Below are positions 19,401 through 42,106 of a stretch of DNA of 64,000 nucleotides, one piece after another. This DNA is from Spirogloea muscicola (lineage: Eukaryota; Streptophyta; Zygnematophyceae; Spirogloeales; Spirogloeaceae), in assembly GCA_009602725.1 (NCBI GenBank), contig WELB01000132.1, positions 287,327 through 351,326 of the forward strand. Direction: 5' to 3'. The translations under genes and the position numbers were made by a program. Position 1 is the stretch's first letter; each line of letters starts with the position of its first letter. Below the pieces are notes generated by a model. That model was not told where the DNA came from. It did not search any database and worked only from the letters and a program-made list of their open reading frames with translations.

Positions 19401-21274
19401 TCGGCTATGCTAAGGCCAGCTAAGGACCACTGGACTTGGCGCTACAAGTTGCGGCCTTGTTGCTATGGGTCTGTCAAGCACAAGCTGCAGCGGTCATTAG
19501 CATATGCTTAGCTGACTGTACAACCGTAAGCTCGTCACCAGAGTGCTCTTGACAGCAGTGAAGCTCAGCCTTCCCAATCCAGACCCTCAGGCATGCAGCA
19601 CATTCAGGGCCAGACCACCAGAAGAAGAAGGTAGTGGACTCTCTGCAGCCGGCTTGACCTGAGAATACTCAGTCTTTGCGTTGAAAGTGGCACTGTTCTC
19701 CACAAGCGCCTGCACAATCTCACCGCCCGTTGTGCCCTCCCTGCGCTGCTGGTGCGTGCATCAATCAGTCTCCGTGCCTGAAGCCAGGCGTCCAAATTGG
19801 CTAGACAATGAGGCTTCCAGCAAGACACAACCCGCCAGTGTCTATCCAAAGAGAATGGACAAAGAGAATGCAAAGCCTGCCGATAGCAGCAGAGACACGT
19901 GCACCGAGAGCCAGGCTTGTATATTATGTGAGAGCTCTGGAAACTTGCAGCCAAGCACATCCCAAAGTGCAGGCTGTGGCGTGCTTCACCTCCGCATGCG
20001 CAAGATGTCATCCTCTGTCAGCGCCTGAGCCGTGTTGGTGTCAGAAAGGGATCGGTTGTCCTTGTCCTGCATATCGGCATTGGCTGCGGCACTGACGCCT
20101 GCGCCCTTTGGGGCCTCGTTGCTGCCGCTGCTCCCTGAGAGCAGATTTGCACGACGCGTGCAGACGACCCTCAGCACGTTGGGCACTCAGAACAGCTCTA
20201 AGTCAGTGCGAATGGCAGGAGGAGATCTACTTAGCGACTCAGAGTGAGCGTCTGGCATTTAGTACGTGAACAGTCTGCGGAATGCAAGGTTAAGAGCTAT
20301 GATGGAGATGTCATGCAAGCAGCCTTGTAGCCCTAAACCCCTAAACCCTACAATCCTAAACCCTACAACCAAGACCCTAAACCCTATCGAAGTGACCACG
20401 GAACATGGCGCGAGGCACAATCGCCGCAGCATCCAGCCACAACTCGCCCAAGTCACTCAGCTCAAGCCCTGGACCGCCCTGGCCCCCAACATGAGCCCTC
20501 CTGGGGCACAACTCATGTCCTATTTGGGAGCTGCAGTAATGGACACCCCTTTCCTAAGAGCTAAGGCCCAGCGGTGGCAGCCTCAAGAACATGGGAAAGC
20601 CGACTACTTGCTTCCAACTGGTGGTCTCCAGCAATCCGGCTGCAATCCATGTCATGCAAGCCCGCTTTGCCTCCAGCCGGCATGGCCTGCCGGGTCTCGT
20701 ATCGCAAGGACAGGAAAGGTGACGCACCGTCGAGCTTCACCAAATGAGCTCTGCCGTCGCGGTTGCTGTCGGCGGTGCACAGCTCAAAGGTGGCGCCGAA
20801 GGGGCACCCGACGAGCTCCACGAGGTCGCACGACGCCTTGCCCACCCTTAGCTTCCTGCAGCCGCCGGCGCTCATCCATCAGAATGAGACTCAGCTAACG
20901 AGGGCTCACACCGTCTCAGAGGTTGGCAATCTGGCCATTGAGTAAGTAGGAATCTGTTTGATGTCAAGAATAGGGTTTAGCATGGGGATGCGGGATACAC
21001 GCCGGGACTTGCGGCGGGATGTGCGGCGCGGGTGGCGGGGGCCAGACCCGCCGCGCCGGACGGTGACGAAGGACTGCCGCTCCCCGTTGACGTCGACGAG
21101 CACGGTGGAGCCCTCGGTGATGAGCGCTCCCGGCGCCGCTGCCGCCACCGCCGCCGCCTGCGGCGCTGCCTCTGCCGCCGGCAGCTCCTCCGACGGCGGC
21201 GTCGGCGGCGGCGGCGGCGGAGTCTCCGTCGCGGAAGCCGCCGCAGCGCCCGCCGCACTCGGCGGGGCCGCCAT
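16490..21274 (-). CDS. TRM6: tRNA (adenine(58)-N1)-methyltransferase non-catalytic subunit TRM6/GCD10
   Basis: Twelve exons: 21274-21048, 20855-20728, 20134-19990, 19740-19659, 19359-19289, 19009-18968, 18681-18557, 18256-18163, 17880-17386, 17195-17090, 16949-16860 and 16699-16490. Summed length is 1815 nt, giving 604 aa. Junction codons restore family motifs: STVLVDVNG and VELVGCPFGATFEL (N-terminal barrel), DTNTAQALTEDDI, GEIVQALVENSATF, EKYRVRKQKKYAP, SLCAAYFLKAP, GFLRVDSLALLLNLANVG, VAERLGGFGSVCSAY, IDIVRLFNL, and at the C-terminus WLQSSKHAVALQLAEPWLRE and SGSGGYVLSGIRV. TRM6 pairs with catalytic TRM61 to form m1A58 in tRNA, including initiator tRNA. TRM61 is not in the window. An acidic/Ala-rich linker (exon 9) precedes the last strands. 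The start is the first ATG after the GC-rich leader, opening an Ala/Pro-rich extension. Splice site 17880 (acceptor TAG) was chosen by phase. Confidence 0.93.
20330..20392. repeat. Interstitial plant-type telomeric repeat in TRM6 intron 2
   Basis: Seven or so copies of CCCTAAA and near variants (CCCTACAA, CCCCTAAA) lie in the intron between TRM6 exons 2 and 3. The motif is the Arabidopsis-type telomere unit read on the C-rich strand. Degenerate copies on the opposite strand lie near 20968-20978 in intron 1. Confidence 0.85.
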
Positions 21275-21299
21275 GGCGGCGGACGCGCGCTCGAGACCT

Positions 21300-21326
21300 G
21301 AAGTTTGCCCTAACCCTAGCCTCGGA
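21300..21326 (-). promoter_or_regulatory. Telo-box-like element just upstream of the TRM6 start
   Basis: Read on the TRM6 strand, TAGGGTTAGGG lies about 30-45 bp before the start codon. Telo-boxes near the start are known in plants for genes of translation and ribosome biogenesis, which fits TRM6. No transcription start is visible, so the role is inference. Confidence 0.4.
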
Positions 21327-21719
21327 CCGCACCCGGCAAACGGCGGACCGACGGCGACGGGACGCTGACGACTCAGTTCGTCGCTACGTTTCCTGGGAAG
21401 TCCAAACGCCGGACAACGAGCCGGGCGGGGAAGTCGATGGGGCCGCAGGGCCGGGGAGGTGGGTGGCGCCGCCTCCAGATCTGGCGGCTCCTGCTCCCAA
21501 TCTGGCGGGGAGTGGTACGCGGCCCGCCTCGCTTTCACAGTCGAGCATCCTGTTCAGCCAATGTGCACCGCACGGCGAGCTGAATGCGCCGTAGCCAAGT
21601 CTGTGGGCGGCGGCACCGGGCTCGCCAGACTTGGCGGGGGCAGGGGGCCTGGCCGAGCTGCAGGCGGCAGCTGGCGCCTCCCCCCCGTCCTCCCTCGCTT
21701 GCCCGGCCGGCACACACCG

Positions 21720-22298: not shown

Positions 22299-25166
22299 AT
22301 GAGGATCATGAGGCCAGATCGCGAGGTCGCAGCTGCAACGTTCTGCATGAGCAAGCATGGGGAGCCGCAGCATGACTATGAGCTGCAGCAGAATGTATCA
22401 CCGAACTCGGCCTTGTCCCAAGTGGGCCTGGCAAGAGACAGTCTAAAGCCCCACCCCAAGTACGCCATTATCCCCTGGACGAATACAGAGCGTGCCTTGA
22501 AAAAGGCTGGAGCAATGGGCATTCTCTGCACCTTCAGGGACCTCGAGACCAAGGAGAGAGTCGTTATAAGGATGATGTGCGACGCCTTTGGCAACATTGT
22601 TGCTGCCCGCCGACTGCTTAGGTACTAAAGTATCACACTTTGGCATGTATGACTTGCTTGTAGAACCAGCGTATTGCACAGCATATATGGTGTCATTGCT
22701 ACTGCCTGCTATACATGTCGTCATTACTGTTTACTGATCTCTGACTACTGCAAGTCGCGACCAGAGGCCTCAATGTTTTGCTAAGACTTGTTGATCAAGA
22801 TTATAGTTGTCATATCGTCCTCTCAGGGAGGTCACCATATTGTACCAGGCGCAGCATGAAAACATCCTCGCCTTGAGGTGAAACACGACAGTCTTCCTGC
22901 CAGGACTTCATGACTGAAGATTATGTAAATTATAAATTTCAAAGCTCTTGAGCGAGAGCGAGTCAGTACATTCTTGAGCAGTAACGAGTCCGTGCATAGC
23001 TGATTGTTTAGTCAAGCTATTCTTCAGTGCTAGTAGTCTGGTCACATGCGAGTGTATGAAGGTCAGAACGCAACACATGCTGGAGAATGTGCTGAAGTGC
23101 CGTAAACAGTAAGCTGCTCAATCAAGTTACAGAAATGCTGACTTCCTGACGCTGCACATCTATTAACCTCATTTCTAGGGACATTGTGATCAAGAGCAAA
23201 CATCTGGAGCAAGTCAACGATGTATACTTGGTCTACGAGATGATGGACACCAGCCTCCACGACCTGCTAAGGATCCGGAGGCTTGAGGATGACTACTGCA
23301 GGTTCTTCTGCTACCAGCTCATGAGAGGGCTCAAGTATCTGCACTCTGCAGGTGTTGCCCACAGGAATCTGAAGCCGAGCACCCTGCTTGTCAATCTTGA
23401 GACTCTCGAGCTCCGCATCTCCGGCTTCTTTCTTGCTCAGTCAGTGCACAGCGCTGGAATGCGCACAGGTCAGGTCTCCCTCATTGAATTTTAATGCATG
23501 TATCATGGCGAGGGCACACACTGATTCAGTGACAGTGCAGGCAATCACAGTCTGAATGGATGAGGGCTTGCGCAGCGATAGACATATCATGCTGGCCTCT
23601 CTCATCTAGTACGTGAGCTGCTGTCCCTGCACATGAGATATCATCTCATGTGCAGACGAATGGCAGGGCAGCCAACCATTAACTGACCGGCAATGAATGT
23701 GTGTATTGTGCTTGCAGAGTATGTTGCTGCAAAGTGCTATGACGCTCCAGAATTGCTACTTAGCTGCGGCCACTGTACCACAGCCGTGGATATGTGGTCT
23801 GCTGGATGCATCTTCCTTGAGATGCAAAGTGGGCAGCACATTTTCCCCAAAGCAAACAGTAACCTCCACCCTTTACACCAGGTGAGTCATGTATAATGGC
23901 CTCAGTAAGTCCGCCTACATAGGGGCAGCTGAGCAAATTCCACCCGCTTTAGTTCCAAACATGCAATGTGTCTCCAAGTGGTTACGTTAGTAGCCTCGCC
24001 AGCACTGGAAGGAGCCACTGCCTATGGTCAATGTTGATGCATGAGATAACTATCATTATCACGTGACCGTCAGAGCTGGCCAATCATGCAATATGAATAG
24101 TTTGCAGATTTCAGCTATTGCCAAGGTGATTGGATCCCCACAACATGGATCCGACCTCAATTTTCTGCAAGACTTTGAAGTGCAACATGATGTTCACAAT
24201 TTTATAGGCGGCCATCCCAGATTGACACTTGCTTGTCAGTTTTCTGGCCTGTCCGACTTAGGTAAGAGGCTGCTCTGTGACGTCATGAATGCAGTGCCAC
24301 CAGTGCAACTGTGAGCGTCAGATTCATGCATTAAGATGTGGGTGGCCTTTCGGTATTCGTGAGGCAGTGTATTCGTCATCTGCTGCTACGCAAGACTGTA
24401 GTGCCATCCCAGCTCATGGGCTGCAACAGTAAATTACAGGTCGAGTCAAACTGACTCGACCTGAAGATATCACATGGCTAGATGTCAGGACCACAACTCA
24501 CAGAAATTGCGTCAGAACGTAGAATAAGTGACTGGCAAGGAGAAGCTCCCCTTCACCTAGCTGGCCGGCTCTCCACGTTGAGCCACGCCAAGCTAAGAGC
24601 ACTTAAATTGCACAATACTGCAGCGGCTGACTTTGCGGAGAGGCTTCTCGATATCAACCCTTCAAAGAGGATGACTGCAGTGCAGGTGCACTTCGTATCT
24701 CTTTACTTCAGCCCAGCATCGCATATCCCGCCTGGTAGGAGCCGTGTATTCGATGGCATATTGAATTTGCTTATCATGCTGCAGAGCCGCTTTGCTCGCA
24801 ATTTAATCTGGTGGCCCAACATCTTCAGTGCATGGTAATTGCAAATGCAAGGACTTCATTGGTGTCTTGCAAAGCTGCAATTATACTTGCTGTCCGAGTA
24901 TGGTCAGTCAAATGTCTAGCTCAATGGTAAGTCGATCGTTCGAAAGAAGGATCGCTTCTTTCGTATCATGCACTCATTCATCTGATATTGGCCTGTCTTC
25001 TTGTCAGGCCCTGAGTCACCCATACCTGGCCAATCTCCGGGATCCCAGTGATGAACCTAATTGCTACACGGAGCTCGCAATAGGGTTAAGAGATGAAGGC
25101 CTATCAATGGCTCAGATCAAGACTCAAGTGTTTCAAGTGGCATCCAAATATCGGTGCAAGAGCTAG
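22299..25166 (+). CDS. MAP-kinase-fold pseudokinase retaining a TEY activation motif
   Basis: Seven exons: 22299-22621, 22827-22877, 23179-23468, 23718-23881, 24108-24261, 24624-24685 and 25008-25166. They total 1203 nt, giving 400 aa, the usual plant MAPK length. MAPK landmarks: REVTILYQAQHENILALRD (helix C with its Glu), NDVYLVYEMMDTSLHDLL, YQLMRGLKYLHSAG, APELLLSCG, DMWSAGCIFLEM, KVIGSPQ, LLDINPSKRMTAVQALSHPY. The catalytic features are all altered: the Gly-rich loop is absent (ERALKKAGAMGI), the VAIK lysine is Arg (VVIRMM), HRD reads HRN (AHRNLKPST) and DFG reads SGF. The activation-loop Thr-Glu-Tyr is kept across the exon 3/4 junction (MRTEYVAAKCY). It probably acts as a scaffold or decoy rather than a phosphotransferase, possibly still phosphorylated by a MAP2K. 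The frame is intact, arguing against a simple pseudogene. It is divergent from TRM6. Confidence 0.88.
23627..23655. other. Perfect 13-bp-arm hairpin in MAPK-like intron 3
   Basis: CTGCACATGAGAT, then ATC, then ATCTCATGTGCAG: two perfectly complementary 13-nt arms around a 3-nt loop, within the intron 23469-23717. Its function is unknown. Confidence 0.9.
24437..24463. other. Perfect 12-bp-arm hairpin in MAPK-like intron 5
   Basis: CAGGTCGAGTCA, AAC, TGACTCGACCTG: perfect 12-nt arms around a 3-nt loop, in the intron 24262-24623. The architecture matches the hairpin at 23627, but the sequence is unrelated. Confidence 0.9.
24941..24963. other. 9-bp-arm hairpin in MAPK-like intron 6
   Basis: CGAAAGAAG and CTTCTTTCG flank a 5-nt loop in the intron 24686-25007. 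It is the weakest of the hairpins in this locus. Confidence 0.75.
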
Positions 25167-25219: not shown

Positions 25220-25269
25220 CCGATGTGCTGTTGCCCATCCCAACGCTGGAATGGGCAACAGCACTTCGG
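25220..25269 (+). terminator. 19-bp near-perfect hairpin downstream of the MAPK-like stop
   Basis: Two 19-nt arms (25220-25238 and 25251-25269) pair with a single mismatch around a 12-nt loop, 54 bp after the stop codon. The position suits a 3'-UTR structure. Calling it a 3'-end or stability element is inference, since eukaryotic mRNA ends do not normally need a hairpin. Confidence 0.5.
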
Positions 25270-25984: not shown

Positions 25985-26110
25985 GCATTGGAAGGAAAGT
26001 TCGTGTATTTGAGAGAAACGAAGGCCAAATGGCCAAGTACAAAGGCAAGCACTAAAGACCTACATAACCTACAGCACATTGACCCGCTCAGTAACCACGG
26101 GTCAAAACAA
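25985..26110 (-). repeat. Dispersed repeat copy (partner at 50212-50340)
   Basis: Read on the minus strand, this matches 50212-50340 over about 125 bp, including TTGTACTTGGCCATNTGGCC and GTAGGTTATGTAGGTCTT. A conserved hairpin with arms TTGACCCG and CGGGTCAA lies at one end. Copies differ by a few percent to perhaps 15 percent. Confidence 0.8.
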
Positions 26111-27728
26111 TAAGGTGGCTAATCGATGCCTGAATTCTAGATGGCAGATACGAAGCCCTTTCGCCACCAACTGGAGCTCGCCCAGCTTTCTGGTGCAAAG
26201 CATTAGCCTGAGCACGCTGCAAACAGGAACTCGTCATGGCAAGAACGACAAATATGCAGCTGGCAAGCCCATCTCAGCCAAGCATTGGAAGGGCTCCTCA
26301 GAGTCCTGCCTCAGCGCAACACTAAGAAGAGCATCATCAGAGAAGACTGTGAGGGCGAGGACGAGGACGAGGACGACGTCGAGGACGAGGATGAAGTAGA
26401 AGATGACAGCATACGCGACGCTGAGAAAAGGATGAGGCAGTGGCATAGGTGGGCATATTGTTGTGTTCATCACCTGCTGCCAGGCATCTTCGTGCTGTGG
26501 CATATGCGAGATTGTCTTCGTCGATGACATTCCTCAAAGATGGCGTCACCTATAAAAGTGAGGCTGGCTACTGGGGGCTTGTGGAAGAGATCGTTGGCAA
26601 AGCTGTCAAACGGCCATCATCAATTGCCCTCTCCTGAGGCTGTGTCGCGGCTAGAATTGCCTGCTGGCAGCGGACAGCATCTAGCTGGGGTGGCGGCTAC
26701 CATATCCATGGCAAAAGCTTGTCACAATGCTCGCCTGCAGCGTCCTACGGCCGTATTATTAGTAGTTGCCAGTGGTCGAAATAGTGGCGAAGGTGGCGCC
26801 CGGCGACGGCGGCTGCCAAAACTCTGTCCTCTAAATCTTATGCAACCTGAAAGCCACTTCTGAACTGAAACAGCGGGCGCACTCAGTCGGCAGGCCGCGC
26901 CAGGGGGCGTGGCGCTCAGCACTTTGGCAGTATGCCACCGGCTAGGTCGGATGGCACATGGTAAATATACAAAAGAGCGTGGTTTGTGTGAGGAGCTAGT
27001 AAGCTAGAAGCTCGTTGCACTACAGTAGTTCGATTGTAGGCGCCTCTTGCGAAGGCGAATCTTTCGCCGAAAGCCTGGAGTGGAAAATACATATTCAGCG
27101 AATCCAATTTCGATCTAGTCGGCCTGAAGCGAGGTTCTCTGCATCATATGAGCATTCAGAAGGAGAAGAGGCGCTGCATCAGCGGTTTATGTCCCGGTCC
27201 ACGTCCGTGTATTGCAAAGAGCTTCTAGCTGACTAGGTCCTCACACAGACCACGCTCATATGTAATTTTAACATGTGTACTAGCTTGCATTGCATCTGCA
27301 TAACTGCACCATGTGAGTGCCAAAATCTCCTTCATATTCATGTGCATGCCTATTGCATCACAGCAAGCAGACACCGAAAGGATGATGCCAAGTGTCCCGC
27401 TTGCTTGTTTGCTTGCTATTGTTCGCGAATATGCTACAAGGTAACAACTGGTTATTGTTGGTGGAAGCTTGATCATGGAGTTGCTGGAGGCGAGGTGTTA
27501 GCTTGCTCCTTGACAAAGTCCGATCAGCAGGAGGCCCGAGAGAGAGGTGAGAGTAGGTCAGAGAGAAAGACGCTTCCATGAGAAAGCGGTGGCTGGGAGA
27601 GGCTCAGCCCAGAAGAAAGAACGGACAAAGAGAGGACAAGTGGACCAGATGTCAACCCAACCTGACAGCAAATCATGTCTGAGGAGGACATGTCAGCCCT
27701 CCTCCTACCTAAAGCGAACTGCTCGTTA

Positions 27729-39292: not shown

Positions 39293-42106
<2,814 letters not shown>

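Follow-up and report, generated by a model that had tools for sequence, protein, structure and literature searches.

In the available portions of two accounts (PMC9106771, PMC8836261), yeast Mlp1 (Kdx1) is described as a catalytically inactive paralogue of the MAP kinase (MAPK) Slt2/Mpk1 that is phosphorylated by the MAP2Ks Mkk1/2 and acts by binding Swi4. MAPK pseudokinases are thus already known from yeast, and on this precedent the original prediction for the locus reported here was wrong to state that known MAPKs keep their catalytic residues. For algae, the available portion of PMC6411719 places a complete common-docking (CD) site only in A/B-group MAPKs and mentions one Chlorella ERK8-like protein suspected of being non-functional. 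A search of the open-licence literature found no MAPK-level pseudokinase in plants or streptophyte algae.

The window, the whole stretch of 64 kb that was analysed (C132:287327-351326), comes from the 153-Mb, 471-contig genome of Spirogloea muscicola, a zygnematophyte that has undergone a genome triplication and whose group probably stands close to land plants. On the plus strand, at 22299-25166, seven in-phase exons (1203 nt) encode 400 aa plus stop, with GT..AG borders in all six introns, as the original prediction of a full-length MAPK had proposed. A splice-aware alignment with plant MPK4 as query, in which any GT/GC..AG path was allowed, recovered the same six introns. As this alignment returned the same exons in the window gene and in a second genomic copy, a gene-model error that hides an intact catalytic core in introns is ruled out; nor is the exon chain a product of chance, because the second copy has the same exons and six GT..AG introns of its own. 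When the protein was compared with the PDB (phmmer), MPK4 came first (7w5c, E 1.3e-77), followed by MPK6, ERK1 and p38, and the best 60 of the 1819 matches were all MAPK entries; Pfam assigned it to Pkinase (E 1.7e-46). Kinase-domain homology, the TxY site and the CD site are all present, which makes it a member of the MAPK family by descent. When the whole 64-kb window was scanned for Rfam families (at the gathering threshold) and for tRNA genes, no matches were obtained.

To assess the catalytic residues, the protein was aligned with five active MAPKs, namely MPK4 and MPK6 from the PDB and three of the genome's own, C346 (A/B), C80 (C) and C24 (TDY). It retains 76 of the 124 columns invariant in these five. 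Exon 1 (22299..22621) encodes an N-terminal extension (aa 1-68), a degenerate glycine loop (K-A-G-A-M-G) in which the first Gly is Lys69 and two of three glycines, G71 and G74, are retained, and the sequence VVIR, where the invariant VAIK Lys has become Arg91 (codon 22569-22571). Exon 2 (22827..22877) covers alpha-C and keeps its Glu109 (22828-22830). In exon 3 (23179..23468), the HRD Asp is Asn188 (23366-23368), with His186, Arg187 and the catalytic-loop Lys190 kept; the invariant catalytic-loop Asn is Thr193 (N193T, 23381-23383), a loss missing from the earlier list; and DFG is GFF (23423-23431), with D207G and G209F replacing invariant residues on either side of a retained Phe208. This exon ends at 23468 with Thr221 and the first base of Glu222, and exon 4 (23718..23881) supplies the remainder, so that TEY is rebuilt across the junction, as predicted, from a Glu codon split 23468/23718-23719. 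The P+1 segment that follows is changed, VAAKCYDAPE against VVTRWYRAPE, and still ends in the APE motif (A231-P232-E233). Exons 5 (24108..24261) and 6 (24624..24685) encode C-lobe, while exon 7 (25008..25166) carries the CD motif (25035-25064), the C-terminal tail and the stop codon TAG (25164-25166).

The Lys-to-Arg and HRD-to-HRN changes were thus read correctly in the original prediction, whereas its SGF for DFG was one residue out of register. It was right that residues on which phosphotransfer depends are replaced, but too strong in calling the glycine loop gone and every catalytic signature lost, given that two glycines, Glu109, Lys190, His186, Arg187 and Phe208 remain. Each of the four residues that define a MAPK as an enzyme is replaced: the VAIK Lys by R91, the HRD Asp by N188, the catalytic-loop Asn by T193 and the DFG Asp by G207. 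The protein is a pseudokinase in the sense that conserved catalytic residues are lost from an intact fold, the fold being predicted from homology. By established kinase chemistry, loss of the ATP anchor, the base and the metal ligands makes phosphotransfer unlikely, and the protein is probably without catalytic activity.

A homeologous copy was found at C19:207086-209990, with the same seven exons, GT..AG in 6/6 introns and the same lesions; of the 25 motif positions that were checked, only residue 69 differs, and it is non-Gly in both. The lesions are therefore older than the duplication. The copies differ at 56 of 1203 coding nt (stop included) and at 28 of 400 residues; over 1625 aligned nt of intron they differ at 235 (14.5%), with 117 further gap columns; two loci so far apart in their introns rule out a single-copy assembly error. 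The dN/dS test that the original prediction had named gave 0.304 (NG86), 0.319 (YN00) and about 0.35 (LWL85, ML), values that, coming from one pair, are pairwise and do not separate each lineage's own constraint. When the window coding sequence was mutated neutrally to 56 changes, the mean number of amino-acid differences was 40, 40 and 38 for three transition shares, and 28 or fewer were reached in 2, 1 and 4 runs per 2000, respectively. The few amino-acid changes relative to these runs, together with dN/dS of 0.30-0.35, indicate that selection still acts on the protein. Conservation is highest in the segment 185-258 (2/74 residues differ), to which TEY and the dead catalytic loop belong; in the C-lobe, 259-355, dN is 0.051 and dS 0.047, a ratio of about 1 on 14 nt changes. 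Constraint on the pair is weaker than on the active MAPKs of the genome, where seven pairs gave dN/dS of 0.011-0.101 (NG86), the ratio of the dead pair being three or more times higher. As the second copy keeps the same losses, the locus gives the impression of encoding a regulatory protein that is being maintained, not of falling into decay.

The order of the gene neighbourhood is common to three contigs, C132, C19 and C36; in addition, several kinases are present in threes and the MAPK types occur two- to threefold, all of which fits a past triplication of the genome. The match of C36 to the window breaks off at 21203 and resumes at ~27360; a run of 9,110 N (794052-803161) lies between, adjoining the first match. 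The sequenced, non-N part of this C36 stretch gave no kinase match, and the expected site of a third copy falls in the N run. Upstream of the MAPK gene, a divergent open frame (20906-21538, minus strand), probably similar to the beginning of a tRNA methyltransferase subunit of TRM6 type, has also been kept next to the C19 copy and at the gap edge on C36. Downstream, about 50 bases past the stop codon, lies a 23-nt inverted repeat (25220-25269; 91% complementary, 4-nt loop), and a stretch matching it is also found 3' of the C19 copy. A repeat of ~290 bases at 25991-26280, with more than 30 genome matches at 89-92% identity as a lower bound, has no counterpart of that form in the aligned flank of the C19 copy (25995 to 26380). 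Introns 3 and 5 contain perfect inverted repeats at 23627-23655 and 24437-24463 (13/12 nt arms, 3-nt loops), and an 826-N gap at 41281-42106 adjoins a long poly-A/poly-T-like run. Elsewhere in the genome, C179:24001-28000 (L046) carries an N-lobe exon nearly identical to that of C80, a group C MAPK, but the rest of a kinase was not found in these 4 kb; it is possibly a fragment or a third copy of the C80/C48 pair.

Three A/B comparators have 207 residues in common, of which the window protein keeps 109 (53%). By segment, retention is 3/3 for TEY, 5/6 for the CD motif and 9/12 for the catalytic loop, and 3/10 for the stretch from DFG to the activation loop, 5/10 for the P+1 stretch and 1/12 for the tail past the CD motif. 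At 53% overall, all three TEY residues would be kept by chance with a probability of ~0.15 (0.53 cubed), so TEY retention alone proves nothing. The frame is open and TEY (T221-E222-Y223) is present and identical in both copies, as had been predicted; the claim of selective loss does not hold as statistics, given this chance of about 15%. In the ERK2 structure, the phospho-Tyr is presumably held by arginines that correspond here to Lys227 and Asp230; of the arginines that presumably contact the phospho-Thr, two of three, Arg108 and Arg187, are kept, the third being Gln212, in place of the DFGLAR arginine. These contacts are not described in the available portion of PMC10458722. With Lys227, Asp230 and Gln212 at these positions, the classical readout of TEY phosphorylation may fail. 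The CD motif reads LRDPSDEPNC in the window copy and LRDPSDEPKC in the C19 copy, and the site is partly lost in the genome's active C-type (C80) and TDY (C24) genes. A MAP2K-type exon (ATFVGTVTYMSPERI...), presumably similar to plant MKK3, occurs three times in the genome, on C1, C23 and C34; the retained CD motif and this exon both lend further support to the original prediction.

We favor, with a probability of about 60%, a maintained MAPK pseudokinase that lost catalysis before the duplication and has been kept for an action free of phosphotransfer, most likely docking through the CD site, by which it would compete with or position active MAPKs. Behind this reading stand the gene structure, the lesions, their inheritance by two copies, the purifying selection and the kept CD and TEY sites. 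An A/B-type (MPK4/MPK6-like) TEY MAPK would have lost catalysis before a triplication-like duplication and would afterwards have been retained for its action without phosphotransfer; its MAPK-shaped surface with the CD site could dock the D-motifs of MAP2Ks, phosphatases or substrates, and the docked dead MAPK may then compete with active MAPKs or position them. The sequence evidence gives good support to a maintained and probably kinase-dead MAPK, and a role as decoy or scaffold is plausible; docking, phosphorylation of TEY and the direction of the effect (decoy or scaffold) are what we infer. Such a protein, catalytically dead yet under constraint and with its docking site retained, would be a natural case of MAPK docking uncoupled from catalysis, in a lineage that is probably near land plants.

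The same observations could be read as slow gene decay, where catalysis is gone, the leftover constraint reflects folding only or an earlier function, and pseudogenisation is under way. The dN/dS, at least three times higher than in active MAPKs and near 1 in the C-lobe, would agree with this, as would the fact that one of three expected homeologs was not seen, though its site falls in a run of N that may be an assembly gap. However, both copies have seven open exons and intact splice pairs (12/12 GT..AG), their overall dN/dS is 0.30-0.35, close to 0.3, a paucity of change that 2 of 2000 neutral runs match, and the dead catalytic loop and TEY lie in the best conserved segment, with 2/74 differences. 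These features are not those of a pseudogene, and we consider decay unlikely.

If the function lay in the TEY site itself, the protein would be a non-catalytic effector resembling Mlp1, which a MAP2K phosphorylates and which thereupon binds its target, a transcription factor or some other protein. TEY, Arg108 and Arg187 (two of the three presumed phospho-Thr contacts) are kept and a MAP2K exon is present in the genome; yet Arg212Q, Arg227K and Arg230D weaken the pockets for the phosphorylated loop and no partner is known, which leaves this explanation rather improbable. An atypical active kinase with compensating residues, for which Arabidopsis ILK1 is an example among predicted pseudokinases in the available part of PMC9403797, would benefit from the two loop glycines, the alpha-C Glu and the catalytic-loop Lys; it would have to operate with no usual ATP anchor, no base and neither metal ligand, since the residues that supply these functions (now R91, N188, T193 and G207) have all changed, and we hold it to be very improbable.

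Regarding the descent of the gene, a tree without a CDK outgroup places the pair on a very long branch (1.84 changes per column) together with MPK4, MPK6 and C346/C192/C166, and separates these from C80 and the TDY genes with 96/96 support. Once a CDK-like outgroup is added, the pair no longer has a clear position, and alternative groupings are not rejected, with MPK4 alone (p-AU 0.507), with C346 and its copies (0.312), with C80 (0.146) or with the TDY genes (0.13). Its complete CD motif is in keeping with an A/B-type protein, the A/B type being the only algal one with a complete site in the available portion of PMC6411719. Intron positions differ from those of the genome's A/B genes and one is common to the TDY gene. 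Recent duplication of an active paralogue, followed by the death of one copy, is ruled out, as identity to the closest two active MAPKs (C346, C80) is 41-42% and intron positions differ.

Compared with the plant A/B-type TEY MAPKs MPK4 and MPK6 (43.4% and 40.5% identity), the protein has homology over the whole kinase domain, TEY and a complete CD motif, but differs in the replaced catalytic Lys, Asp, Asn and DFG Asp/Gly and in the altered P+1 segment. The active genes of the genome correspond to the algal MAPK types of PMC6411719, with a complete CD site in C346/C192/C166, a partial one in C80/C48 and TDY in C24/C8/C229; unlike this genome, the portion of that survey available reports no dead canonical MAPK, and the word pseudokinase has 0 occurrences in it. 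A wider proposal, which we advance tentatively and at somewhat less than even odds, is that the green lineage would here have its first case of a pseudokinase maintained at the MAPK level: an A/B MAPK that has become a docking protein working through its CD site and may tune MAP2K output or MAPK access to substrates, fixed before the genome multiplication, present in at least two copies and evolved separately from its yeast parallel. That a dead MAPK could work via docking and phosphorylation by MAP2Ks is possible by analogy, as Mlp1 shows in the accounts available (PMC9106771, PMC8836261). The algal protein, which is probably dead, resembles Mlp1 as an altered member of the MAPK family, a likeness drawn from the descriptions in those portions and not from sequence comparison; they differ in that Mlp1 belongs to an independent lineage and is described as monophosphorylated, not as a full TEY switch, whereas the algal protein has the whole TEY.
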